This document shows positions 30,251 to 64,000 of a stretch of DNA of 64,000 bases, piece after piece. This stretch comes from Branchiostoma floridae (lineage: Eukaryota > Chordata > Leptocardii > Amphioxiformes > Branchiostomatidae): assembly GCF_000003815.2 (NCBI RefSeq), contig NC_049981.1, positions 20,886,505 to 20,950,504 on the forward strand, read 5' to 3'. The notes beneath the pieces are model-generated. The model was not told the DNA's origin, did no database searches, and worked only from the letters and a program-made list of their open reading frames with translations. The position numbers were made by a program, and so were the translations under genes. How positions within the stretch are numbered: position 1 is the first letter of the stretch; the number at the start of each line of letters is the position of its first letter.

Positions 30251-30397
30251 TCAGGATAACGAACTCCGTTCTGTCATTCTTGACTTGTTGAGATACTGGT
30301 GTCACCTCTAGGACGAGGATGAACTGACCTGAACATAATGTACCCCGTGAGAAAGCAAGCTATACAATGTATACATAGTGGAACAACCGGCACCAGC

Positions 30398-30465
30398 ATA
30401 GCGCGTGTCAAGGCCGGGCAGAGTTTAAAGGCCGGTCTGACTTTTGTCACATATCGCGGCACCAG
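30398..30465 (+). pseudogene. relic copy of galactosyltransferase exon 1, unit 1
   Basis: GTGGAACAACCGGCACCAGC followed by ATAGCGCGTGTCAAGGCC aligns with the real exon 1 start of copy B (GTAGAAGAACCATCATCACC then ATGGTGCGGGTGAAGGCC). The start codon is now ATA. A sister relic lies at 34424, and the real exon 1 of this unit should fall inside the gap at 31007-31522. It is a decayed duplicate exon, not expected to be translated. Confidence 0.6.
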
Positions 30466-30710
30466 TCACACTGCCACATCGGTGTGATTTAAACATTTTG
30501 CTAAATTGCTGAATATTCGTTCTTCCTGCACCGATAGGTAGGTGAGAAATGGAGGAGTTGTATGTTTGTTTTAGAAGGATGATTCGCTGGCATTTCGTTC
30601 CGATTTAAAATGTATGTAATGACCTAACTTTGGTTGGTGAGAGAGTGAATAGCGAGAGTGGGTAAGTTGGGAGAAAACGCCCTGCAGGTAGACATTGTCA
30701 AGATTGGTGT

Positions 30711-30996
<286 letters not shown>

Positions 30997-31006
30997 TGCA
31001 TGTGGT

Positions 31007-31522
31007 NNNNNNNNNNNNNNNNNNNNNNNNNNNNNNNNNNNNNNNNNNNNNNNNNNNNNNNNNNNNNNNNNNNNNNNNNNNNNNNNNNNNNNNNNNNNNN
31101 NNNNNNNNNNNNNNNNNNNNNNNNNNNNNNNNNNNNNNNNNNNNNNNNNNNNNNNNNNNNNNNNNNNNNNNNNNNNNNNNNNNNNNNNNNNNNNNNNNNN
31201 NNNNNNNNNNNNNNNNNNNNNNNNNNNNNNNNNNNNNNNNNNNNNNNNNNNNNNNNNNNNNNNNNNNNNNNNNNNNNNNNNNNNNNNNNNNNNNNNNNNN
31301 NNNNNNNNNNNNNNNNNNNNNNNNNNNNNNNNNNNNNNNNNNNNNNNNNNNNNNNNNNNNNNNNNNNNNNNNNNNNNNNNNNNNNNNNNNNNNNNNNNNN
31401 NNNNNNNNNNNNNNNNNNNNNNNNNNNNNNNNNNNNNNNNNNNNNNNNNNNNNNNNNNNNNNNNNNNNNNNNNNNNNNNNNNNNNNNNNNNNNNNNNNNN
31501 NNNNNNNNNNNNNNNNNNNNNN
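31007..31522. other. assembly gap, 516 N
   Basis: The run of N removes the first 30 codons expected for exon 1 of galactosyltransferase copy A and its promoter. From the layout of copy B the missing exon start should lie near 31433 if the gap size is right. Confidence 1.
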
Positions 31523-32519
31523 CAACTTTTACGTTTTGAATCACATCGGAATACATATACAACAGAAGGTAAACCCAGTCATGCATTCATTCATTCATTC
31601 ATTTCTCATTCATTCATGTACGATCATGCATTCATTCATTCATTTTCACTCATTCTCTCATGTATTCACTCATTCTTTCATTGACATTCCTTCATTCATT
31701 TATTCAGTAGTCATCAACCCACATCCTTACAAACTCGTCATCAACAACCCCCGGAAGTGCAGCGGAAGTGACGTATTCCTGCTGGTCTTGGTTACATCGG
31801 CGCCGGAGAACCGCGCTCAGAGGTCCGCCATCCGACAGACGTGGGGGAACGAGAACAACGTGCCAGGAACCGTCATTAAAACTCTCTTTGCGGTGGGAAA
31901 ACCGGGAAAACCCTCCATACAACACAGTCTGGAGGACGAAAACATGGTCCACAGGGACATCATCCAAGAGGACTTCGTCGATTCCTATAAAAACTTGACT
32001 CTCAAGACCGTCATGTGTCTAAAATGGGCCTCCCAATTCTGTCCCAACGCCAAGTTCGTTATGAAAGCTGATGACGACACATTTGTGAACATCTTTAACT
32101 TAGTAAAACGTTTGAAGTTCACGGTGCCAGGGGAATTTGTGACAGGGTATGTTTTCACCAACACAAGACCAGTTAGAGCTCGATATGACCGTTGGTACGT
32201 AAGCGAGAAAGAGTATCCCCGGGAGACCTTCCCGAGATACCCCTGTGGATTCGCATACGTCATGTCCAATGACGTCACCGGCGTAATCTACCGGACCTCT
32301 TTGACCTTGAAGTACATTTTTCTTGAAGATGTTTTCTTGGGACTTTGCTTAGAAAAACTAGCAATCGACCCCGTGCACGACACTCGCTTCCACCATTCAG
32401 AGACAACGCCATCTTGCGAAACTGGTAAAGAATGGATCGCTTTTCATTTGATTAAAACTCGGTACGATATGATTAAGGCGTGGCAGGACGTCACCAGTTG
32501 CGACGCATCCCTGTCTTAG
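31523..32519 (+). CDS. beta-1,3-galactosyltransferase-like protein (GT31), copy A, 5' end in gap
   Basis: The family transfers galactose (or N-acetylhexosamine) from a UDP-sugar to a glycan acceptor as a type II Golgi membrane protein. Exon 1 survives only as its last 46 bases (31523-31568, QLLRFESHRNTYTTE). The donor is G|GTAAAC and the acceptor TTTATTCAG|TAGTC, giving a phase-1 intron. Exon 2 is 31708-32519. Together they encode 285 residues; about 30 are missing. The catalytic exon shows the GT31 hallmarks KCSGSDVFLLVLVTSAPENR, AIRQTWG, the DxD-containing KADDDTFVN, YPCGFAYVMS and EDVFLGLC. One NLT glycosylation site is present. The acceptor lies in a CATT microsatellite. Acceptor sugar and ortholog cannot be told from sequence. 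Family assignment is firm. Confidence 0.93.
31581..31706 (+). repeat. (CATT)n microsatellite ending at the exon 2 acceptor of copy A
   Basis: ATTCATTCATTCATTC runs interspersed with CTCATT and ACTCATTC fill the short intron (31569-31707) and provide the pyrimidine-rich stretch before the AG at 31706-31707. The same arrangement occurs in copy B. Confidence 0.85.
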
Positions 32520-32812
32520 CTTGAATTAGATCGCCTTTAAAAGCTTTTATGACACTTTGCATGGGAAGATGTGCTGAATTTTTTGTGAACATATTCTACT
32601 AGAGTATAATCTCCGGGCCGGGAATGGGGTTAAGGCCATCTTCATACAATATAATACGTGCATCTGACATTGTTAGACGTTCTTCGTTAAAATTACATAT
32701 GCGATTATCTATGTTTAAAAACACAGTGCCCTCTGTAATAATGTTAGACTTATTGTATATTATATGATCTATTGTATGAGTCCTGGAAGATTATTGAGCT
32801 AAAGGGAATCTC

Positions 32813-32818
32813 AATAAA
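32813..32818 (+). promoter_or_regulatory. possible polyadenylation signal of copy A
   Basis: AATAAA about 295 bases after the stop codon of copy A. It lies in the roughly 900-bp segment that is absent from the downstream unit, so the two genes may end differently. Confidence 0.4.
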
Positions 32819-33940
32819 CTCAAGAATCACATTTGCATAATTGGTATCCGTTAATGTTCGAACTGCCACAGACTTCATGTTACATGTATCCGATCAGTCA
32901 GTCAGTCTTGATGGAAAACATTGCAAATAAAGCGCCGATTCGCATAATTTTTCAATCATTATGTACGTAATCTCTTTTAAGCTACCTGCGTACTTGATAT
33001 CATAGAAATACATCGTTTTTGTCTAGTTATTCTCTTTTAAAGATTTGGACAGAAATGTCCCTGTAGTTCTAGAGCAAGCTGCTAGGAGACCCAAACATAC
33101 ATCACACATCACTCTTCCTTACATCACAAGCTAGGTACGAAAATTAGACTAGAAACGTTAACTAGAATGATTTTATTCTATAGTTAGACTTTCACATTCT
33201 AAAGGGAAAGACAGATTTATGTATATAGAACTGATGGATGTTATAAGAAATGAGATTTGATATTCTTATTGTAATGTAGCGCCAATTTTAAACAACAAGT
33301 AGTATCATAATAGTAGTTTTTAACCAATTGTAGATATGTAATATTATAGAGCTGTATTTGTCTTTGATGTCTGTCAGTGATTCAGTCCGAGTTGTATTAC
33401 TTTGTTGAACTTAACTACATGTACTAGTTAACTGCTAGACTGTCATTTTGAATGTTCGAATCAATAAAAATCAATCATCAAGCTATCTGCCACAAAAAAC
33501 TGCTGTAGTAGCAAGGTCACATACCAAAATGGGGAAAAAACACAATTTTCTTCCAGACACCTACCCACATACATTGTAACATCTGCTTTTGATTTTAAAA
33601 AGTTTGGTAAGTATATAGTGGTATTTCCGGTCAGAGGCAACAGAGGTGGTATGTTAATGGAGGACTCGCTTTGCAAAGGGGAACTGACAGCTTCATAAGC
33701 ATAGTGTAATACCGAAAGACACGATTTCCATTGCAGCAAAGGCCAAATAACTAGCGTATAAACGGTTTTGTCAAACTAAAGAGTTAGACTGATCGCTTAA
33801 CGGGCAGCAATGATATTTTTATGGCTAAAGGTTTCGTGTAAAGTAATAAGTTTTAGCAACCTTACAGATAAGCGTGGTGGATTTTGTAACGTCAATAACA
33901 GGACCACAAGTTATGTACAATCCGAGGGACATCCCTAATA

Positions 33941-34170
33941 TCCCTGTCACATTTGGCGAAAATCGATCGGACGACGATTCTGCCCCAATCGCTCGAGCCT
34001 CGCTTATAATAATCACTTTATTTCACAACAATTGTACAAGGTACAAAGTAAGGCTTATATGTGACAAGAACGGTTTTCAGGTAAAAAAATACGCGAAACC
34101 CTCTGTCAATTTTAGATATGCCCGATCTTCCATCGATACGCCCGAAGATCGTGGATAATGTGACAGGGGT
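33941..34170. mobile_element. 230-bp MITE with CCCTGTCACATT ends
   Basis: TCCCTGTCACATTTGG at the left and AATGTGACAGGGGT at the right are inverted copies. AATA/ATAA flanks are compatible with a short AT-rich target site. It sits between the two duplicated gene units and has no counterpart after unit 2. The 94-codon frame crossing it is not a gene. Confidence 0.65.
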
Positions 34171-34423
34171 ATAATCGGAGCTAGGTACTCATTTTCACCT
34201 GTTGTAAAGTTCCATTCCCAAGGAAATGACATCGGAACCTGTCAAAGATTCGAACTTATTATCTCCCGGTTCTGAGTCTACAACCATAACCACAGGACGA
34301 GACACGTGCTTGACAGGTACTTGTAGGGATACTAGTGTCGCCCCTCGAACGAGGATGAACTGAACTGAACGTAATAGTCCTTGTGAAAACATGTTACATA
34401 AAAGTGGAACAACCGGCACCAGC

Positions 34424-34500
34424 ATGGCGCGCGTCAGGGCCGGGCAGAGTTTGTAGGCCGGGCTGACTTCTGTGTTTCATACCGCAGGATTCCTCTACTC
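34424..34500 (+). pseudogene. relic copy of galactosyltransferase exon 1, unit 2
   Basis: GTTACATAAAAGTGGAACAA and ATGGCGCGCGTCAGGGCC match the 5' leader and start of real exon 1 at 35510 (GTTACATAACAGTAGAAGAA, ATGGTGCGGGTGAAGGCC). Similarity continues to GCAGGATTC. An in-frame TAG at 34454-34456 ends translation after 10 codons. It lies 1.09 kb upstream of the functional exon, which points to an earlier partial duplication. Confidence 0.7.
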
Positions 34501-34659
34501 ACTTCAGTTTGCGGCACCAGTCACCCTCTCACACAGCCACACGGGTGGGATTTTCACGTTTTGCCGAATTGCTGAATATTCGCTCTCCCTGTGCCAATAG
34601 TTAGGTGAGGAATGGAAGTGTTGTGTGATTGTTTTAGAAGGATAATTCGCTGGCATTCC

Positions 34660-35030
34660 ATTATCTCCATGCACAATGGAGATATTGTTTTGGATGTGTC
34701 TGTGTATGCGTCTTTGTGTGCGTGATTTTCCGGATATTTGTGGTAAGCATAATTGAAGTACCTTCTGGATGGATTGTAATTATTTTTGGTACTTAGTAGA
34801 CAGAGGTTGGGAAGACGAAGTTTAAGGCTAAGTTTACCCCCCTGCTGGTTGTAACCTTGGTACGGCAGCAGAACGTCGAATTTTCGTATCTTTTCACCTG
34901 GGTGTGCATGTCATGATCTTGGTACTTTGGTCGCAGATAGATTGTGATGTAGGGAAGAAATTGTGTAGGTTTGGGCCCCTTGTAGATTGCTCTGGAACTG
35001 CAGCTGTTCTTTTGTCAGAATCTTCCTAGA
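34660..35030 (+). repeat. dispersed GT-rich repeat copy
   Basis: TCTCCATGCACAATGGAGA (a hairpin), then ATATTGTTTTGGATGTGTCTGTGTATGCG and TTCTGGATGGATTGTAATTATTTTTGGTA, follow the family pattern (GT run, GGATGGATT, TTTTTGGTA). It separates the exon-1 relic from the real exon 1 in unit 2. In unit 1 the matching place holds the hexanucleotide tract. Confidence 0.5.
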
Positions 35031-35274
35031 AAAATAACTGAAAAACGTAACGATGTATTTTCTTAAAATCTAGTATGCAGTTAGCTTAGACAGTGATGTA
35101 CACAATGAAGTGCATATTACGCGAATTGGGACTTATAACAGCTTACGTAACAGCCCGTGGAACACCTTATGCATGTAATTATGTTTCCCGATCGGGAAGG
35201 CATATTGTTTTTGCTGGTATATCTTCTTCTGTTCTTCTTCTACTTTCTTCATAACCATCTTCTTCTGTCATGGG

Positions 35275-35282
35275 CCAATCAG
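35275..35282 (+). promoter_or_regulatory. CCAAT-box-like motif upstream of copy B
   Basis: GGGCCAATCAGAGC carries a canonical CCAAT core about 235 bp before the ATG at 35510. No clear TATA box was seen between them. The motif alone is weak evidence. Confidence 0.3.
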
Positions 35283-35509
35283 AGCTTAGAACAGCCGCCG
35301 ATATCAGTACATGCACATAGGAAAATAATGATACATGTTGAAGCAACTATGTCGTTTTAGGCGACGCCTCAGGGCCGAGCCTGGCCTTATGGTGTAGAAT
35401 TTTGTGTGCAGGTACCTTGACAAAAGACTTGGTGGGAAACAAAAATGCCTTTCAAGTTATGTAACACTCTTCTTCACGGTTACATAACAGTAGAAGAACC
35501 ATCATCACC

Positions 35510-37498
35510 ATGGTGCGGGTGAAGGCCAGGCGGACTTTGAAGACACTCGTCATCCTGTGCGTCATCGCAGGATTCATCAACAACTGGTCATATGTCAGTC
35601 AGCTCTTACGCTTTGAATCACACCGGAAAACAACTGAAGGTACACACTTAAACCATTACACCGGGGTGACATCAGGGGCAGTTTGCGGGAAAGAAAAGTA
35701 CGATACAAACATACATGAGAAAGAGAAAACAGATATGAAAAAAATGATATAAAAGAGAACATATAAAAAGTGCAAAAATCGTTTTTAAAACCCTTTGCCG
35801 GATATATCCGACACACATATACATGTCCTGTGTGCATGTGCCACACCCGGATATATCCGGGATAGCGTATTCCCCCGAAGTAGCAACTTTGCGCACGCGT
35901 AGTGCACGAACCCCGGAAGCTAGGGACTTCGGCCTTGTTCGTGGGGTTCTTTTTGGAGGTCAGCAGCCAACCCTGGCACTGATAGCATTTTATAGTGCTG
36001 GAACTCTGGCAGTTTCAGCACTATAAAATTAACAAGACCTCTCCAAGGCAATGAACTAAAAAGTTGGAAATGGTTGAGCACGGGCATTTAAGCATAATGT
36101 GAATATCTATTGAGATACTTTTTGACCGTAAATTTGGCTGCGGCATTTTCAGGCTCTACGAGTCGGGTTAGTTTGCTCATGATGTGTTATTCTTTTCTGG
36201 GTTATTCATTGGTTTTGGTTGTAGCCGGCTACTTGTACAGAGGCGGCTTTACAAGAAACCGGCTACTTGCAGAACTAGAATCACTGTGTGCTGTATCTAT
36301 TTGAGTTAGTAGCTTTGGTTATAGCTTCATTATTTGTCATAAGTCATCAATTCAACCAATTAGTCAATGAATCATTCGTTCCTTTTTTCAATTGCTACAT
36401 GGTGTAACAGCTGTACAATTGACTTCTTTTTCCTTCTTCATTCATTTACTCATTCATATCTCTCCTGATCAATCATTCACATTCATTCTTTCACTCACTC
36501 ATCTTTTAAATCAGTGTCTCATTAGTCTACTTATTCACCGACTCAGTCTCATTCATTCAATATTCATTCATTTACTCACTCATTTACTCATGCATTCCTT
36601 CCTTCCTTCTTTCCCTCCTTCCTTCCTTCCTTCCTTCCTTCATTTGTTAATTGACATTAATTAATTAATTCATTCATTCATTAATTCAGTAGTTATCAAC
36701 CCACATCCTTACAAACTCGTCATCAACAACCCCCGGAAGTGCAGCGGAAGTGACGTATTCCTGCTGGTCTTGGTTACATCGGCGCCGGAGAACCGCGCTC
36801 AGAGGTCCGCCATCCGACAGACTTGGGGGAACGAGAACAACGTGCCAGGAACCGTCATTAAAACTCTCTTTGCGGTGGGGAAACCGGGCAAACCCTCCAT
36901 ACAACACAGTCTGGAGGACGAAAACATGGTCCACAGGGACATCATCCAAGAGGACTTCGTCGATTCCTATAAAAACTTGACTCTCAAGACCGTCATGTGT
37001 CTAAAATGGGCCTCCAAATTCTGTCCCAGCGCCAAGTTCGTTATGAAAGCTGATGACGACACCTGTGTGAACATCTTCAACTTAGTAAAACGTTTGCAAT
37101 TCACGGTGCCAGAGGAATTTGTGACAGGGTATCGTTGTTACGCGAGACCGATTAGAGCCGTCGATGACCGTTGGTACGTAAGCGAGGAAGAGTATCCCCG
37201 GGAGACCTTCCCGAGATACCCCTGTGGATTCGCATACGTCATGTCCAATGACATCACCGGCCTAATCTACCAGACCTCTTTGACCCTGAAATACCTTTTT
37301 CTCGAAGACGTGTTCTTGGGACTTTGCTTAGAAAAACTGGCAATCGACCCCGTGCACGACACTCGCTTCCACCATTCAGAGACAACGCCATCTTGCGAAA
37401 CTGGTAAAGAATGGATTGCCTTTCATTGGATAAAAACTCATGACGGTATGGTTAAGGCTTGGCAAGACGTCACCAGTTGCGAGGAATCCCTGTCTTAG
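35510..37498 (+). CDS. beta-1,3-galactosyltransferase-like protein (GT31), copy B, complete
   Basis: Predicted 312-residue type II Golgi glycosyltransferase, the usual size for B3GALT proteins (about 310-330). Exon 1 (35510-35639) starts at ATCACCATGG, a good initiation context. It encodes a basic N-terminus (MVRVKARR) and a membrane anchor at about residues 10-24. The donor is GAAG|GTACAC and the acceptor AATTCAG|TAGTT, both phase 1. Exon 2 (36690-37498) carries the whole luminal domain: AIRQTWG (84-90), KADDDTCVN with the DxD metal/UDP site (DDD at 165-167), YPCGFAYVMS (about 220-229) and EDVFLGLC (249-256). One NLT site is seen. The residue after DDDT is Cys, where copy A and many relatives have Phe. 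Acceptor specificity is unknown. It is a tandem duplicate of copy A. Confidence 0.95.
35799..35861. repeat. two CCGGATATATCCGG palindromes in the copy B intron
   Basis: CGGATATATCCG (35799-35810) and CCCGGATATATCCGGG (35846-35861) are perfect palindromes about 35 bp apart, with a CACATATACATGT-type stretch between. No known factor is assigned. Confidence 0.7.
35987..36029. repeat. 43-nt hairpin in the copy B intron
   Basis: ATTTTATAGTGCTGGAACT and AGTTTCAGCACTATAAAAT pair over 19 positions with one G-U wobble around a 5-nt loop. It is unique to unit 2. It could be the remnant of a small MITE, or a structured RNA in the intron. The loop is short for a microRNA precursor. Confidence 0.75.
36440..36688 (+). 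repeat. (ATTC)n / (CCTT)n low-complexity tract before exon 2 of copy B
   Basis: Runs of CATTCATTTACTCATTC, then (CCTT)n at about 36597-36641, then ATTAATTCATTCATTCATTA lead directly into the acceptor AG at 36688-36689. The counterpart in copy A is shorter and lacks the CCTT block, so the tract has expanded independently. Confidence 0.85.
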
Positions 37499-38069
37499 CT
37501 TGAATAAGATCGCCTTTAAGCTTTTATAACACCTTGCATGGGAAGATGTGCTGAAGCTTTTGTGAACATACTCTACCAGAGTCTAATCTGCAGTGCTGCT
37601 CTGGGTCATGAATTGGGTTAAATCGTCAAATCTTTAACGTTATCTTTCTTGAGCACAAGATGAATAGCTCGTTTTCTATTCTATGGTGCCATCCCTTTCT
37701 CTTATGACAATTCATCGGGAGGGCGCAAGGCAGTAAAAAGATACAAATACAATATAGTAGGTAAATCGGACATTGTAAGACGTTAAAATTACCCAAGCGA
37801 TTATCCATGATACAAAAGATGCTGACATCGTTTTAAGATGCTCTAACGGTTAGCACGTAGTGACATTTCAGGTCAGAGACAACGGAGATGACTAATTTTT
37901 AGAAGACTCACGTTGTAAAGGAGAACTGACAGCTTCATGAGCACGGTGTAATGTCGAATGACACGATGTTCATCGCAGCAAAGGCCAAATAACTAGTGTA
38001 TAAACGCTTTTGTCAAGCTAGAGGCTTAGACTGATAGGCAGCAGTATGGCTAAAAGGTTTCATGTGTGA

Positions 38070-38075
38070 AATAAA
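38070..38075 (+). promoter_or_regulatory. possible polyadenylation signal of copy B
   Basis: The first AATAAA found after the copy B stop, about 570 bases downstream, at the end of the duplicated unit. Another AATAAA is at 38433. Neither can be confirmed from sequence. Confidence 0.25.
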
Positions 38076-38144
38076 AAAGCTTTTCCTCACAATTCATAAC
38101 TTATCGACAAACTTGTGATTAATCTATTGTCATCTATTGTAGTG

Positions 38145-38182
38145 TTTTTGTTTGTTTATTTATTTATTTGTTTGTTTGTTTG
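38145..38182. repeat. (TTTG)n/(TTTA)n microsatellite
   Basis: TTTGTTTGTTTATTTATTTA then TTTGTTTGTTTG just beyond the end of the duplicated unit. A complementary AAAC-rich run lies at 38447-38470, so the two could pair. Confidence 0.8.
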
Positions 38183-38679
38183 TATTGTAAACTACCTCGT
38201 GGCGTAACATGAAGAGTACTGAAGAGTAAACTTCATACCTGTACGATTTGATCCAGTCACACCGGCAAGAACCCCAGGCCTAATGTACTTTTGATGAGGA
38301 TGGTGGGTTCGTTAATGTGCTCTAGGTGTGACGGTCCCATATCACAAGACCTCGATCTTTAACGTCCTAATTGCTTCTCCCAATGGCACTACATCGGGAC
38401 CTGCGACCCGCGGGCCGATTTGAGCTTTCATGAATAAATGAAGGTTCAAACAAACAAAGAAACAAACAAATCTGTAGGCGATTCAAACCTTGTATCTTCA
38501 GGTTCTAAGTTAATGACTTATACTAACGTTACAACCACAAGTTTACATCTTATTCGCTCAAACCCTGAAACATACGCGAGTGATGTTTCAACTGTTGCCA
38601 TTGCGTATATAGTGAGAAGAACAACCACCGACAATGGTGACTTTTATGGTTTCCTCATTGCATAACAATCATTACAGTG

Positions 38680-39585
38680 ACGGAACGAGACGAGAGTGAG
38701 AATGGAGAAAATGAATTTGTACGATGTGTATATTCTGACAGCAAGGCCTTTGTCGATTGTACTAGTTCAACTTCTTAATTCTCGCTGCTTGAGACAGTTG
38801 TAAATGTACGGGCAGGTGACTCTGAATTGTAGGTATATACATATTTTTGCAAATTTCTACGTGCATATTTATTGGTATCTTACGTAATTAGATACACATC
38901 GATGAGATGCTTCAGATTTCCGGCGACCGTCACCTTGAAGTTGAAATAGAAACATATACGAAACCGAAAGACAAGGTGCTAAAATGGGTACTACTTCTCA
39001 CGTTCTTTCACACTTCCTCAAACGTTGTTTGGTCCATGTGTCTTACTTTCCAACCGACACGAGGTTAGGCTTCTAGATATTGATCAGGACAGTGACACAT
39101 GGCGCTGCCTCGAGGAGAATATGTTTCCCTCAGATAAAGGTAGACCCTCAGGGAGGTGCCCTAACATGGCACGCTTTGTCACACGCTCGAACTCACGGTG
39201 CTCCATCGCTAGTAGTCAGAAAGTGGTCAAGTTTTGATGAACGAATTCTTAACATATTCATCTGCAGAACATTCTTAGATAAGAAGTGCATTCATACGGT
39301 TTATGAACCATTCGTGCTGCGTGTTACAAGTAAACACTGGGAGACAGTTTTGTGTAATACTATGTACCTTCTGATTTTTCGCTACGCAAGACAGTATGCC
39401 ATGACTTGGTGCCCCCCCCCCCTTAATGCTCTCTTCAGAAGTTAATGATAAGTACCCAGAAATAAGAATCCAATTTTATGATATTTTGTCTTTCTTTTGA
39501 CAGTAATTTTATGTTGTTCTCGTCTCATGTGAGAAAGTCTGTGTCTAGCAAAATCCAGCTGATGTTTTTAGCTGGCACTTGTTAA
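38680..39585. other. intergenic stretch, nothing recognised
   Basis: Contains a C11 run (39412-39422) and no supported gene. Two overlapping frames at 39025-39445 have no recognisable motif. Confidence 0.4.
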
Positions 39586-39589
39586 TTGG

Positions 39590-39725
39590 CGTCATGTACA
39601 GTTGCTTTGTACGTTTACAGTTTGGTCGAAAACTTTCTTTTCTTTTCAATTGGATGAAAATTGATGAGTGCGCGGATGTCATCCATATAATACAATCAAC
39701 ATGGCCTTATAATTACTGTATGTGG
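39590..39725. mobile_element. right half of a family X TIR element (copy 3)
   Basis: GCTTTGTACGTTTACAGTTTGGTCGAAAA followed by GTGCGCGGATGTCATCCATATAATACAATCAACATGGCC matches the right ends at 8700-8785 and 23755-23860. The left end was not found, so the copy is truncated. Confidence 0.5.
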
Positions 39726-40165
39726 CTGACAGGGTACGGGCTGCTGTTTAACCTATATGTACCTCCAAGGCATTACTGTGGACTTGGGATGGGCTCTATA
39801 TCAGTGAAATACCTTACAGCTGAATTCTGCCGATACGAACAACTTTATTGCTCAGTATATGAGACATCGATTTTTTTTCTGGCCGTCAAAAGACGAAGAT
39901 GAAAGCTTGAAGACGTCTGGTAGGCAGGTTCTTGTTGACGCTGATTGAGAGTAACCTCGGAGCCTGAAACGGCACAAATAATATATGTGTATTTAAACAC
40001 TGGCATAGGAGATCCCTGAATGTAAACGAAGGCACGTAAATACTTAACATCTGGGACCGCATCTGCCAGTAGAGACCCCTATGATGCAGTGCACTGTGAA
40101 CTAGTAAGAATTGCCCTGAGGGTGATGAAAGACGGTCGTTCCGTATATTCCGTAGAATAGAACAA

Positions 40166-40761
40166 GACCCCATTCATACTCAGACAAAGCGATTCGGATA
40201 AAACATTTATTCGAATAAAAAATATTCTATCCGATCCAAAATTGCGTTCACACTCGTCTTCGGCAATCCGATTAGTGCGCCCTCAGTCTTATCCGAATGA
40301 AACATTAGGTTGAGGTCAAAGGGTATCGCCATTTCTTACAGCTCAAAATAGTGTTATCCACCAACTTTTGATGCTGTTGTTCCTCTGGAGAATGTTCTGT
40401 AGTCGTAGAAGGGAACGCAATCGACGGTCTTTGATCGCGAGAAGGTTTCACCGACAAAGTCTTCTGCATATTTGGCTAGCTGTAGTACAGCTCAGATGTA
40501 CGCCACCAGAGCGGCAGACAGAACGATCTGGGAGCGGGATTGGTGGAACAACATTGTGCTTTGAACTTTTTTGGAGTCGGACTGGCAGCAAAACTTCTAA
40601 TTGAGCAAACTCACCTTTGATAAGTTGCATCCTATCCACTTAAAGTGAATCCTATCCACTTGCGCATTCACACTGCCGAATCGTACGAATCGAGACTCCC
40701 CGCGGCGCAGTTTTATCCACTTTCCGGAGTTCTATCTACCTTCCCTAGTGTGAATGGGGTC
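40166..40761. mobile_element. 596-bp Harbinger-like element with transposase remnant
   Basis: GACCCCATTCATACT at the left and AGTGTGAATGGGGTC at the right are inverted repeats (14 of 15). The 3-bp flanks are CAA and TAA, one base from the TWA duplication used by PIF/Harbinger. ATTCACAC/CATTCACACT words recur inside (about 40252 and 40667). The interior holds a piece of Harbinger-type coding sequence (separate entry), so this is a deletion derivative of an autonomous element. Confidence 0.7.
40514..40633 (+). pseudogene. fragment of a PIF/Harbinger transposase, two in-frame stops
   Basis: The + strand reads RTIWERDWWNNIVL, stop, TFLESDWQQNF, stop, LSKLTFDKLH. The order WW..IVL.TF...DW..NFR.SK.TF is the conserved start of Harbinger (DDE_4) transposases. 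TGA at 40562-40564 and TAA at 40598-40600 replace sense codons. The catalytic domain that should follow is missing because the right terminal region starts almost at once. The fragment cannot encode an active enzyme. Recognised by eye, and the superfamily call is fairly confident. Confidence 0.65.
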
Positions 40762-41521
40762 TAAACATGGCGTCCAGTCTACCGTGGATTGGCCAGGCCC
40801 TCTTCGGGGCAGATGAGGTGTTCTGTCGCCGTGGTAGTCTTCCGCACCCGGTTGGGATTTGACGGGACAGGAGTTTAACTCGCCACTATTTAACTCATAC
40901 CATGTAAAACTCATACCGGCGGCTGAAAGATACCTGCCCGAACAGAGCCCGGATAATCTACGGTAGACTGGATACAAGAATACATGAGACTCGCCATGGG
41001 AAAACGAAGCTTGTTGAACGCACAAAAAACACAAGAACAACGTTAACATATTCAATTACAAATTTCATTGGCAGTTCCATCATTCATCCTAGCTGACTGT
41101 ATCACGCCATTGATATGTCACCCCATCTTTACCATTGTACAAGTGATAACAACCTGTAAGGTATCGCAATCCTCTTGGGTGCAGATGGGTTTCTTCGATA
41201 AGGATTCAACAAAACTTCTTTGAAGTAGGGTTGTAAGGATAAAAATGAAGAAAAAAATCAAATATCAAGTAGAGTGACGACATTCATCAGATATTACATG
41301 TAATCTGGCAGCATTTCACTTAACCGTCGCCATTACACAGACTTCCGTTGCTATAAAGTTAATTCTACAGCTTCATAACAAAAACCTAAAGGCTAGGCGA
41401 ACATAACTTTGCTTCCTAACTATGGATGCCTTGTCTTGATTCTGTGCAAACATCATTTATCACCCAACTGATGAACACGCGTGATAATACTACATTTTCA
41501 GGCTTATTAATAATATTCATG

Positions 41522-41621
41522 NNNNNNNNNNNNNNNNNNNNNNNNNNNNNNNNNNNNNNNNNNNNNNNNNNNNNNNNNNNNNNNNNNNNNNNNNNNNNNN
41601 NNNNNNNNNNNNNNNNNNNNN
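41522..41621. other. assembly gap, 100 N
   Basis: A run of exactly 100 N, the conventional placeholder for a gap of unknown size. Confidence 1.
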
Positions 41622-59649: not shown

Positions 59650-61440
59650 CATTACATGTACTATAAAACAGATCATGCTTGTCATACAAACAGATGAGTA
59701 TATTAATATATATCGTTTATCGGTACCTCTGCAGTGTACCGTAACGCACACAAAATCATGACTAGTGGGTTAGATAATGAGCCGTAACGACACAGCCAAA
59801 CGAGTATCAATCCATTTAGCGAAGTGAAGTATCGGATAGATCAGCCGACGTAAACTGTTTGCGTGAAAATCGATAATGAAGCTCTTGATACTTTGAATCG
59901 ATATTCCTTGCGATACTTGTAATTTTATTCCCCCATTGTTCCTGAAGCCCAAAGGTCAAGTTAGTTTTCTCGCATGTCAACATTACTGCATTTTACAAAT
60001 TCAAAATCTCTCCAAACCAGTTTGGGGAATAGAATTCTATCGATTACAGTACACATTCTATTTACGTACGGCCAAAATTAACTTTAAGTTTTATTGCTCA
60101 GAAGTATCCGACATAGACTCATAAGTCTTAATCTACCAGGTATGTTTGTGAAAAATACGACGTTCCCGTCAAATGAAACTAGCTACAGGAATGTATAGCC
60201 CGATTATTATCATAATTTACCACATTAAACAGCTGGATGACTTGCAATCAGTTGCAGTATCCAGAGTGATTTGCAATCAGCACCGGCTATTGGCAGTTTA
60301 CCGGGAAGATTCTACACTGATACATGTATAAAATTATGGTTATCATCTTAGCTTCCAGAGTTACACATCTAATGAAAGGAAACATTTTCAACGGTAATTT
60401 TCTTTTACAATACATGGGCTGTCTTGTCTGTACGTTATAAAGCTAAATCATGGCGCTATGCGAGCATGAAGATCACCCATTCTACAGGCCGTGATGTTGC
60501 AGCAAACGTTGATGGATTGCCGTGTGTTAGATTTGCTGGAAGTCTCCCTCGGGCAACGTAACGTATGGATTATCGCTCCATCGCCTGAGATAGTGTGAAC
60601 TGCAACAGGATCCTTCTCCCAGACGCTTGTAAACCCATGTCCATTTTCCCTTCCATTCCGATATGAGAGATAATACACAACTGACGTCACTATCTCGGCC
60701 ATTAAACGTGTTTCCACATCCCGTTACGAACTCAATTTCAGGGTGATGTTCGTAAGTTGTCAAATGGTGAAAGATCTGGCCATTAACTACGTTTCACTCT
60801 GGAAATATCCAAATCCGTCTGTCTCAATCGATAGTAGAACTCCATGGTAGTGTCAAACCAAGTCGATATGATCTTAAGTACACAATTTCATGTGCGATAT
60901 GACTGGTCTTTAGACTTTGTCCAAGCTCACGCCAATACATGGTTTCAAGCTATGGCCATGGACAATGGCGTTCGTTAATTCCAATCACGTTACGTGCAAG
61001 CCACGGAGTCTCCCTGAACGGTGCACGGCCAATGGATTTAATGGATCGGAACGTAAGGAAAAGCGAGACTAATACCGCTCATATTTTGTACATCGTTTGC
61101 TGGACAGTCGACATCAATATGATTGATTCATTCGTGACAACATAACGGAACATTTGCATTTCCCACTGAGCATTGCTACTAACTATGTATTTCATTCCCA
61201 TTCTCTTCATGCGATATTTTAAAGATTACCTTTGCTACCTGCTTTAGATTAATGATACGTGTTATCATCCTGTGATCACTTTTTTTTTGCACCTCTTATC
61301 GACGAGAGGGAGACATCTTATAAAATCATGGAAGCGTTGTGGATGTGTACTTCGTGCGAAGTGCTACACGAATTAGGTACAGCGAGTTTCCTATGACTTA
61401 TCATGTTGAGATATGCTCAACCACTCGCAGCTAGACGTCA
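59650..61440. other. intergenic stretch, nothing recognised
   Basis: No supported gene. The two overlapping minus-strand frames at 60448-60763 have no recognisable motif. Confidence 0.35.
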
Positions 61441-61449
61441 TGCACGGCA

Positions 61450-62525
61450 CGAAAAACGGAATTTAAGCATGCTTAAATGATGCTTAACGTTGACGTATTT
61501 TCCTTCTTTACGGATCTATACATCTCTTATACGAGTACGTAAAGATTGGCGTTACGTAGTCTTTACGTAGGTGCTGATAGGTCCGTATTTTCCGGTTTTT
61601 TAAGTTGCCTTTCGGCAGCTTAAAGTTGTTGTAAATAATTACTAAAACTCATTTAAATTGCATTTAAATATTACGTTTATAAAAATTTAAGCATTGTTAC
61701 GGCTTATTTACGTGTGCGTAAAGATGATCATTAGGTGGCTTATAGGTGGGGATAGGTCCGTATTTTCCGTTTTTTTAAGTTGCCTTTCAGCAGCTTAAAG
61801 ATGTTGTAAATGTTTATTAAAACTCATTTAAATTGCAATTAAATACTACGTTTCATAAAACTTTAAACATCGTTACGGCTCATTTACGTGTGCGTAAAGA
61901 TGATCATCAGGTGCTTATAGATCCGTATTTTCCGGTTTTTTAAGTTGCCTTTCAGTAGCTTAAATATTTCGTAAATGATTATTAAAACGCCCTTAATACA
62001 TGTTTAAAGTTCACGTTTATCTCTTCTGAAGCCTTTATACTTGTCATATACGTGTGCATTAAGATGTTTATACTTTGTGTATTGGTGCCCTTTTAGCAGC
62101 TTAAAGTTGTCATAAACACTTATTAAAACACCCTCAATACATGTTTAAAGTTCACGTTTATTTCCTCTTAAGTCTTTTTACGTCTCATATACGTGTGCAT
62201 TAAGATGTTTATAAGATGTGTATTGTTGCCTTTTAGCAGCTTAAAGTTGTCATAAACACTTATAAAAACACCCTTAATACATGTTTAAAGTTCCCTTTTA
62301 TCTTCTCTGAAGCCTCTTTACGTCTCATATACATGCGCATTAAGATGATTTTAATGTGTCTATATTTGTCCTTTTAGCAGCTAAAAGTTGTCATAAATAC
62401 GTACTAAAACACCCTTAAGACATGTTTAAAGTTCCCTTTCTACGTCTCATATACGTGTGCATTAAGGTGATTATAAGGTGTGGATAAGTGTCGTTTTAGT
62501 GGGATAAAGTTAATCATAAGCACGT
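61450..62525. repeat. diverged tandem array, units of about 120-175 bp
   Basis: Units share, in order: TTTTAGCAGCTTAAAGTTGTCATAAACACTTATTAAAACACCC, TTAATACATGTTTAAAGTTC, TTTACGTCTCATATACGTGTGCATTAAGATG and TTATAAGGTGTGTATTG. The AGCAGCTTAAAG block falls near 61613 (GGCAGC), 61789, 61953 (AGTAGC), 62093, 62234, 62377 (AGCTAAAAG) and, decayed, 62496. Left units are about 170 bp with an extra GGTCCGTATTTTCCGG segment; right units are about 140 bp. This shows two sub-families grading along the array. Confidence 0.8.
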
Positions 62526-62572
62526 TTTAAAGCAAGAAAATACAATGGATGAAACTTTGAAATTTTATTGAA

Positions 62573-63083
62573 TTACGACAAAACATTACATGGAAAAGTA
62601 GAAAAAAACCTACAGCCTACTAGGTATTTGTGGCCTATCATTCTGATGTAGTCGGCAGTTGAAGCAATCACAACGGCTGTGCAATTCCGTGCAGCATCTA
62701 AGTCCACAGTCCCATTTCCAGTGTCGGGCGAAGCGTCACGGCGTAAGTTAAAAAGAGCACACAGTTCCATCTGGCCACCACAGGAATAAGAATCCGGTAA
62801 GATCTAGAGTAGTGGCCGATATGACTCGTGTTGTTGGATGGTCTTGGACTCTTGGAAATATTTGGACGCGAAACATGTTCAGCTTGCAGTCTCGGCTTCT
62901 ATTGATCCGGATGGTACAATGGTCGTGATTTCCCATTCTGTGTCGATTTCCAACAACATCAACTTGTACAGAATGATAGCCACCTCCTGTCTTTGCGTCA
63001 AATTCCGTCACCGGGGTCCTAGGCGGTAACAGCAGTGTCACGGCCACAATTTGCGGGTTAGAACAGGTCCAAACTTTCTTCAA
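62573..63083 (-). other. two overlapping minus-strand frames followed by AATAAA, unassigned
   Basis: The frame 63083-62748 (111 codons) overlaps the frame 62770-62573 (65 codons), which ends at a TAA followed three bases later by AATAAA. Codon use looks less AT-driven than the surroundings. There is no recognisable domain, the frames do not join without a shift, and the + strand is open here too. It could be a decayed mobile-element gene, a 3' exon of an unseen gene, or chance. Confidence 0.2.
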
Positions 63084-63479
63084 TACTTCTTTTCAAATGA
63101 ACGCCTGGAAAATAACCGCTCCTTGTGGTATGGTAAATTTGAACCCCCCACTCTTTTCTGCCATTGGATACATCCTATCACATGACACAGCCGCTGTGTA
63201 TGTATAGTATGCCGGCCACAGACGGAGGCGCGCCCCATGCGGAATGCGCGTACGAATTAACGCTGAATAAATTTACATCTAGCCTGCCCAAGCATATCAC
63301 AATAACCAAAACAAACACGGGGAACACGGGAAGACACTGCCTGTGTGTCCAGACTGTTCTTTCTTGACGCGTGCTTGTAGATAAAGAAATCATTCGTACA
63401 TTTACTTGTAGTAAGAAATGCTCGCCGTTAAATAGTAAGAAAAATATCATGATTAAACACCACTCACTACACAAAAGTA

Positions 63480-64000
63480 TAAGCTAAACAAAGAAGCTTT
63501 TAACGGGGGAGGTCTCACAGTGTTCGCTTAAAAGTGCGCGGATTCAAAGATTAAATATGTTGTATGTTCAACAGAAAAACGCAACATTTCATATAAGTTT
63601 TGGCAACATATAAGCTAAACGGGGGAGGTCTCCCCGTGTTCGCTTAAAAGTGCACGGATTCAAAGATTAAACATGTCGTATGTTCAACAGAAATACCCAA
63701 CATTTCATATACGTCTTGACAACATATAAGTTAAACGGGGGAGGTCTCCCCTAGTTCGCTTAAACTGCGCGGATTCAAAGATTAAACATGTCGTATGTTC
63801 AACAGAAATACGCAACATTTCATATACGTTTTGACAACTTATAAGCTAAACGGGGGAGGTCTCCCCTAGTTCGCTTAATCTGCGCGGATTCAAAGATTAA
63901 ACATGTCGTATGTTCAACAGAAATACGCAAAATTTTATATACGTTTTGGCAACATATAAGCTAAACGGGGGAGGTCTCCCTGTGTTCGCTTAAAAGTGCA
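63480..64000 (+). repeat. tandem array, 115-116 bp period, at least 4.5 copies, runs off the window
   Basis: The block CGGGGGAGGTCTC starts at 63505, 63620, 63736, 63851 and 63966. Each unit contains GTTCGCTTAAAAGTGCGCGG, ATTCAAAGATTAAACATGTC, GTATGTTCAACAGAAATACG and CAACATATAAGCTAAA. Units are about 95% alike by eye. The first (leftmost) carries an insertion before CGGGGG. No coding content, and it probably continues to the right. Confidence 0.95.

Follow-up and report, generated by a model that had tools for sequence, protein, structure and literature searches.

Copies A and B, two neighboring genes in the window analyzed here (64,000 nucleotides of the Branchiostoma floridae genome, C3:20886505-20950504 in the assembly searched, which comprises 513 Mb in 431 contigs), are, on the evidence of their sequence, tandem duplicates of a beta-1,3-galactosyltransferase-like (GT31) gene. 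Their second exons are mosaic, and ectopic gene conversion between the duplicates very probably explains this. We infer conversion rather than a double crossover as the cause. Both the type of event and the enzyme family are known; the A/B pair is a new instance. No title on gene conversion between amphioxus galactosyltransferase genes was found among the open-licence papers listed (for one search, 15 of 41). Plain identity between A and B misdates their duplication.

Mosaic divergence of exon 2

Exon 2 of copy A (31708..32519) and exon 2 of copy B (36690..37498) are both on the forward strand. According to a global alignment and codon counts, codons 1-109 contain four differences between the copies, all of them silent (31712, 31841, 31898 and 31907), and no amino-acid change. 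This confirms a claim of the earlier note, which had also reported about 25 differing amino acids and one codon missing in B over the last 161 residues. The counts for these (codons 110-270) are 24 substituted amino acids and a single codon absent from B, corresponding to 19.5 silent and 26.5 or 27.5 replacement changes, depending on gap placement. The silent divergence (dS) between A and B rises from 0.056 in codons 1-109 to 0.22 in codons 110-270, and the step in replacements between the halves has p 1.4e-6.

The homogenized tract, as delimited by alignment, codon counts and segment scan, is at 31713..32033 in copy A and at 36695..37015 in copy B (forward strand), with three silent and no replacement differences inside. 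A sharp switch right after MCLKWAS had been proposed. This holds for the amino acids, where 32034 (Q/K) is the next position to differ, but not for silent sites: these are identical from codon 67 to codon 125, and silent identity continues to 32080. Because there is no silent difference in this range, the sequence places the 3' end of the tract only somewhere in 32034-32081.

The 3' part is patchy. In 27-codon windows, dS is 0.41 (136-162), 0 (163-189), 0.32 (190-216), 0.06 (217-243) and 0.45 (244-270). A second identical patch of 77 bp (about codons 219-243; 32361..32437 in A, 37340-37416 in B, forward strand), with denser patches of differences on either side, is a possible second short conversion tract.

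The non-coding flanks serve as a yardstick for age. Duplication unit A (30283..33793) and duplication unit B (34319..38035), both on the forward strand, match in three blocks (30283-30447, 30466-30594 and 33616-33793 of unit A) at about 80-84%. In these, 86 of 462 sites differ (31/155 = 20.0%, 21/129 = 16.3% and 34/178 = 19.1%). The differing blocks are located on both sides of the genes, so the flanks were not exchanged. Silent sites in the 3' half of exon 2 (19.5 of 102.7) match the flank divergence (p 0.89), while those in the 5' half (4 of 74) depart from it (p 0.004). By this yardstick, the 3' half is as old as the duplication. The 5' half looks too recent; its apparent age is roughly one quarter of that, within a wide margin of error. 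From the stop codon onward (32517-32612 in A, 37496-37589 in B, mostly 3' untranslated region), 8 of 94 aligned bases differ (8.5%), which is below the 16-20% of the flank blocks.

Under the conversion reading, A and B would first have diverged after the tandem duplication. Ectopic gene conversion would then have overwritten roughly the first 330-370 bp of one exon 2 with the sequence of the other copy. Further along the exon, another 77 bp or so may have been replaced in a second, short tract. Outside the converted parts, the copies would have stayed divergent, also in the loop predicted to touch the acceptor sugar. When changes over the exon were polarized with two paralogs, C and D (see below), 19 were A-derived, 18 were B-derived and 14 remained unresolved. 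This even split gives no clear sign that one copy evolved faster, and the direction of conversion is unreadable from it.

Segment scans

A GENECONV-like permutation was applied at sites variable among paralogs, using alignments of 3, 6, 4 and 12 sequences (with 4000 shuffles, p cannot fall below 2.5e-4). The earlier note had counted a significant tract with its end near 32036 as support for conversion. The best all-site segments end at codon 109 in two alignments (codons 6-109 with 3 sequences, p 0.002; codons 4-109 with 6 sequences, p 2.5e-4) and at codon 125 in a third (codons 4-125 with 12 sequences, p 2.5e-4). The longest mismatch-free runs, in the same order of alignments (3, 6, 4 and 12 sequences), are codons 219-243 (p 4e-4), 4-44 (p 0.015), 219-243 (p 2e-4) and 68-109 (p 0.011). 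When the 3' half is scanned alone, the run at codons 219-243/244 is prominent in all six outgroup sets (p 1e-4 to 0.002). When only third positions of the 3' half are used, p is 0.006-0.049, but four of the six sets favor codons 160-200/201 instead. Because the best segments and runs vary among the alignments and point to separate regions, the exact ends are uncertain and more than one conversion event is likely on these alignments.

Some results weigh against conversion. The silent step between the halves is modest (Fisher p 0.007 or 0.020, with different alignment and rounding), as are the outgroup-calibrated tests restricted to silent sites (p 0.017 with C, 0.11 with D, 0.016 with C12a and 0.033 with C4). 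Third-position segments are likewise modest (codons 6-124, 4-124, 68-124 and 4-124 with 3, 6, 4 and 12 sequences; p 0.010, 0.049, 0.057 and 0.030), and the longest third-position runs have p 0.013-0.12 across the four alignments. In the alignment of A, B, C and D, the best segment is codons 219-243 instead (p 0.004), and the segment end shifts from codon 109 to codon 125 with the alignment. The 5' edge of the tract, at the exon start, adjoins intron sequence of low complexity and defies placement. The four differences of the 5' part persist inside the tract, which is thus not fresh.

Alternative explanations

It could be that no conversion occurred, the donor-binding 5' half being far more constrained and the 3' half free or positively selected. 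We consider this very improbable. Constraint was assessed with paralogs from the same genome, mainly the outgroups C (C141) and D (C16:17.62 Mb), the DNA of which matches A in pieces with 76-83% identity; D covers just 72 of the first 109 codons. Replacement divergence (dN) is indeed lower in the 5' half than in the 3' half (0.114 vs 0.263 for A-C, 0.040 vs 0.132 for C-D), and hence by these comparisons constraint on replacements in the 5' half is real but partial. Over 152 paralog pairs excluding A-B, the median dN ratio of codons 41-109 to codons 110-235 is 0.73. However, a ratio below 0.1 is found in none of these pairs (the lowest, C12a-C12b, has 0.11), as opposed to 0 for A-B. The earlier note had named constraint alone as a refutation of conversion, but in the paralogs constraint reduces 5' replacements and leaves silent changes unaffected: dS in the 5' and 3' halves is 0.74/0.67 for A-C, 0.78/0.74 for B-C, 0.87/0.91 for A-D and 0.81/0.96 for B-D. 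The silent step of A-B is absent from all four comparisons (A-C Fisher 0.88), and C-D leans the opposite way (0.70 vs 0.52). With scaling for constraint, a 5' half as old as the duplication is expected to have 22.5 differences (8.5 at replacement sites and 14.1 at silent sites when calibrated on A-C), and four are observed (0 and 4; Poisson P 2e-6). Fisher tests on all sites, calibrated on outgroups and not fully independent, as the A and B branches are common to the pair and the outgroup comparisons, give p 1.7e-4 (C), 0.0044 (D), 6.7e-6 (C12a) and 5.6e-6 (C4). The modest silent-only evidence for conversion also speaks for constraint. As to the 3' half, dN/dS is 0.35 for A-B and 0.25-0.39 in C-D, A-C, B-C and A-D. 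The earlier note had offered two causes, a conversion tract or recent strong selection in the 3' half. The significant tract favors the former; the latter finds no support in this ordinary dN/dS, in the agreement of 3' silent sites with the flanks or in the even split of polarized changes.

The identity might also be an assembly artifact, with reads from the two 5' halves mixed or collapsed, which seems very improbable. Gaps are present on both sides of the stretch (31007-31522 and 41522-41621), and lancelet genomes are highly polymorphic; for the Chinese lancelet, 4.39% single-nucleotide polymorphisms are reported (PMC4284660). Yet both copies of exon 2 are within a single gap-free stretch (31523-41521), four differences survive between the 5' halves, and a like step occurs in a gene pair of a different, gap-free contig (L011). 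For a third close copy acting as donor, the assembly was searched at the protein, family and DNA levels, and no close candidate was seen. Among the best-scoring candidates of the DNA search, only A (100%) and B (93%) of 13 matches exceed 83%, and the next long match among those listed has 77% over 687 bp. No import from another subfamily was seen for A or B: in a half-by-half comparison of nearest neighbors over 23 of the 29 family loci (six were left out), the partners in A/B, C/D and C12a/C12b are unchanged between the halves. Conversion between A and B remains the preferred explanation.

Related pairs in the GT31 family

The family search of the assembly gave 30 matches, which correspond to 29 loci because one locus is split over two matches. 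Over the domain, identity of 85% is reached by three pairs of these loci: A/B, C12a/C12b and C6a/C16ps. C12a and C12b form an inverted pair about 6 kb apart and show a step in the same direction as A/B (dS 0.07 vs 0.23, dN 0.025 vs 0.110; a segment at codons 20-133 with p 2.5e-4; Fisher p for silent sites 0.027 or 0.007). C6a and C16ps are on different contigs, C16ps is broken, and their step is reversed (dS 0.71 vs 0.22, p 5.5e-4). No silent step was found in C-D, C15x-C14x, C6a-C16z, A-C and A-C12a (p 0.37, 0.24, 0.85, 0.76 and 1). The pair C5a-C5b is near saturation, with the 5' half more alike (silent p 0.058, replacement p 3e-9). Judging from these pairs, mosaic divergence occurs in more than one pair of the GT31 family and is not restricted to one half.

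It is tempting to speculate that conversion repeatedly renews the donor-binding half of neighboring copies while selection keeps the acceptor-loop differences, so that a shared donor engine is combined with private acceptor specificities. This is doubtful at present. Two of the three closest pairs fit, and the third, with one broken member, is the reverse. A related possibility is that recurrent conversion homogenizes the donor half and selection removes tracts that would erase the acceptor-loop differences, which we regard as unlikely. The C12a/C12b step agrees with it, as does the confinement of A/B differences, among 18 mapped contact residues, to two that touch the second acceptor sugar (see below). 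On the other side are the reversed step of C6a/C16ps (albeit with a broken member), the comparisons C12a-C6b and C12b-C6b, which also lean in reverse (p 0.04 and 0.03), and the outgroup-calibrated tests of the C12 pair, which reach about 0.001 for all sites but 0.06-0.10 for silent sites. A further point is that dN/dS in the A-B loop (codons 137-182) is 0.58, not above 1. That conversion spares the acceptor half is therefore a lead, not a rule, since the step is repeated in one further pair but reversed in a third. Should the pattern prove recurrent, it would amount to a natural experiment on how conversion and selection split an enzyme into shared and private halves.

Two loci of this assembly contain internal repeats. 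A broken GT31 copy (L051, C16:16.075 Mb) has in its 5' part in-frame repeats of an RDTWGD-SNI motif, with in-frame stops beyond, and its 3' half is much closer than its 5' half to a C6 paralog. The region C16:17.621-17.629 Mb (L010) contains, at 706-2952 of the reverse complement, nested repeats with four copies of a 68-bp stretch, which resembles the exon start of paralog C and the bases that precede it.

Gene structure

Both copies of exon 2 are open through to the stop codon and code for a Galactosyl_T domain (PF01762), with 167.3 bits for A and 160.5 bits for B, above the curated cut-off of 23. An assembly gap (31007..31522, 516 N) swallows most of exon 1 of copy A, including the start codon; only the exon end remains (31523..31568, forward strand). 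Exon 1 of copy B (35510..35639, forward strand) codes, when read by eye, for a short tail and a hydrophobic anchor like that of a type II Golgi enzyme. The best local match between the exon 1 sequences has 85% over just 33 bp, which suggests that the homogenized tract stops short of exon 1; in a global alignment of the exon 1 piece, 10 of 41 positions differ, with a poorly aligned end. Intron 1 has about 0.14 kb in A (31569-31707) and about 1.05 kb in B (35640-36689). In both copies, it closes with CATT-type simple repeats, directly before exon 2, where the homogenized tract starts. Elsewhere in the window, three tandem arrays (periods 175, 141 and 115 bp) occupy 61576-63999, the last reaching the window end (scan of 60000-64000 only).

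Predicted function and comparison with known systems

By their PF01762 domain and their DxD and xED motifs, A and B are putative beta-1,3-galactosyltransferases. The best solved relative of both by sequence is human B3GALT5 (8zwp; E 5.5e-55 for A, 3.1e-50 for B). Its structure paper (PMC11969544) names residues in contact with donor and acceptor and a loop, Lys172-Thr217. This loop aligns to codons 137-182 of copy A (32115..32252) and to 37097..37231 of copy B, which is shorter by one codon (both forward strand). The densest A/B differences (32151-32186) fall in it; divergence between the copies peaks in this loop, which is predicted to recognize the acceptor. These differences may alter acceptor choice. 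Positive selection on the loop is not claimed, dN/dS at codons 137-162 being 0.58 for A-B and 0.52 for C-D; the value of 4.6 for the C12 pair rests on one silent change (Fisher 0.17).

In the alignment to 8zwp, the DxD (here DDD, positions 156-158), the xED (ED in both copies at 242-243) and the lid Trp of B3GALT5 are conserved in A and B. Of the contacts named in the structure paper, 18 positions were mapped through the same alignment (His285 is beyond the mapped part). The copies agree at 16 of these and differ at K185 and E188, the only mapped contacts described in that paper as touching the second acceptor sugar. They align to V and T in A and to R and A in B, although alignment gaps nearby make the register of both positions uncertain.

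The A/B pair resembles the Pcdh variable exons and dog Ugt1 a7-a11, for which, in one report (PMC1885805), a tract is likewise homogenized within a duplicated exon, as assessed by GENECONV-type statistics. The present case, however, involves just two copies and a tract of about 330 bp in a single exon. A second parallel from the same report is the hypervariable acceptor pocket of UGT1/UGT2, in which acceptor-side residues also diversify and the donor side is shared. In UGT1, the donor half is shared via constant exons, whereas in A and B it would be shared via conversion between separate genes.

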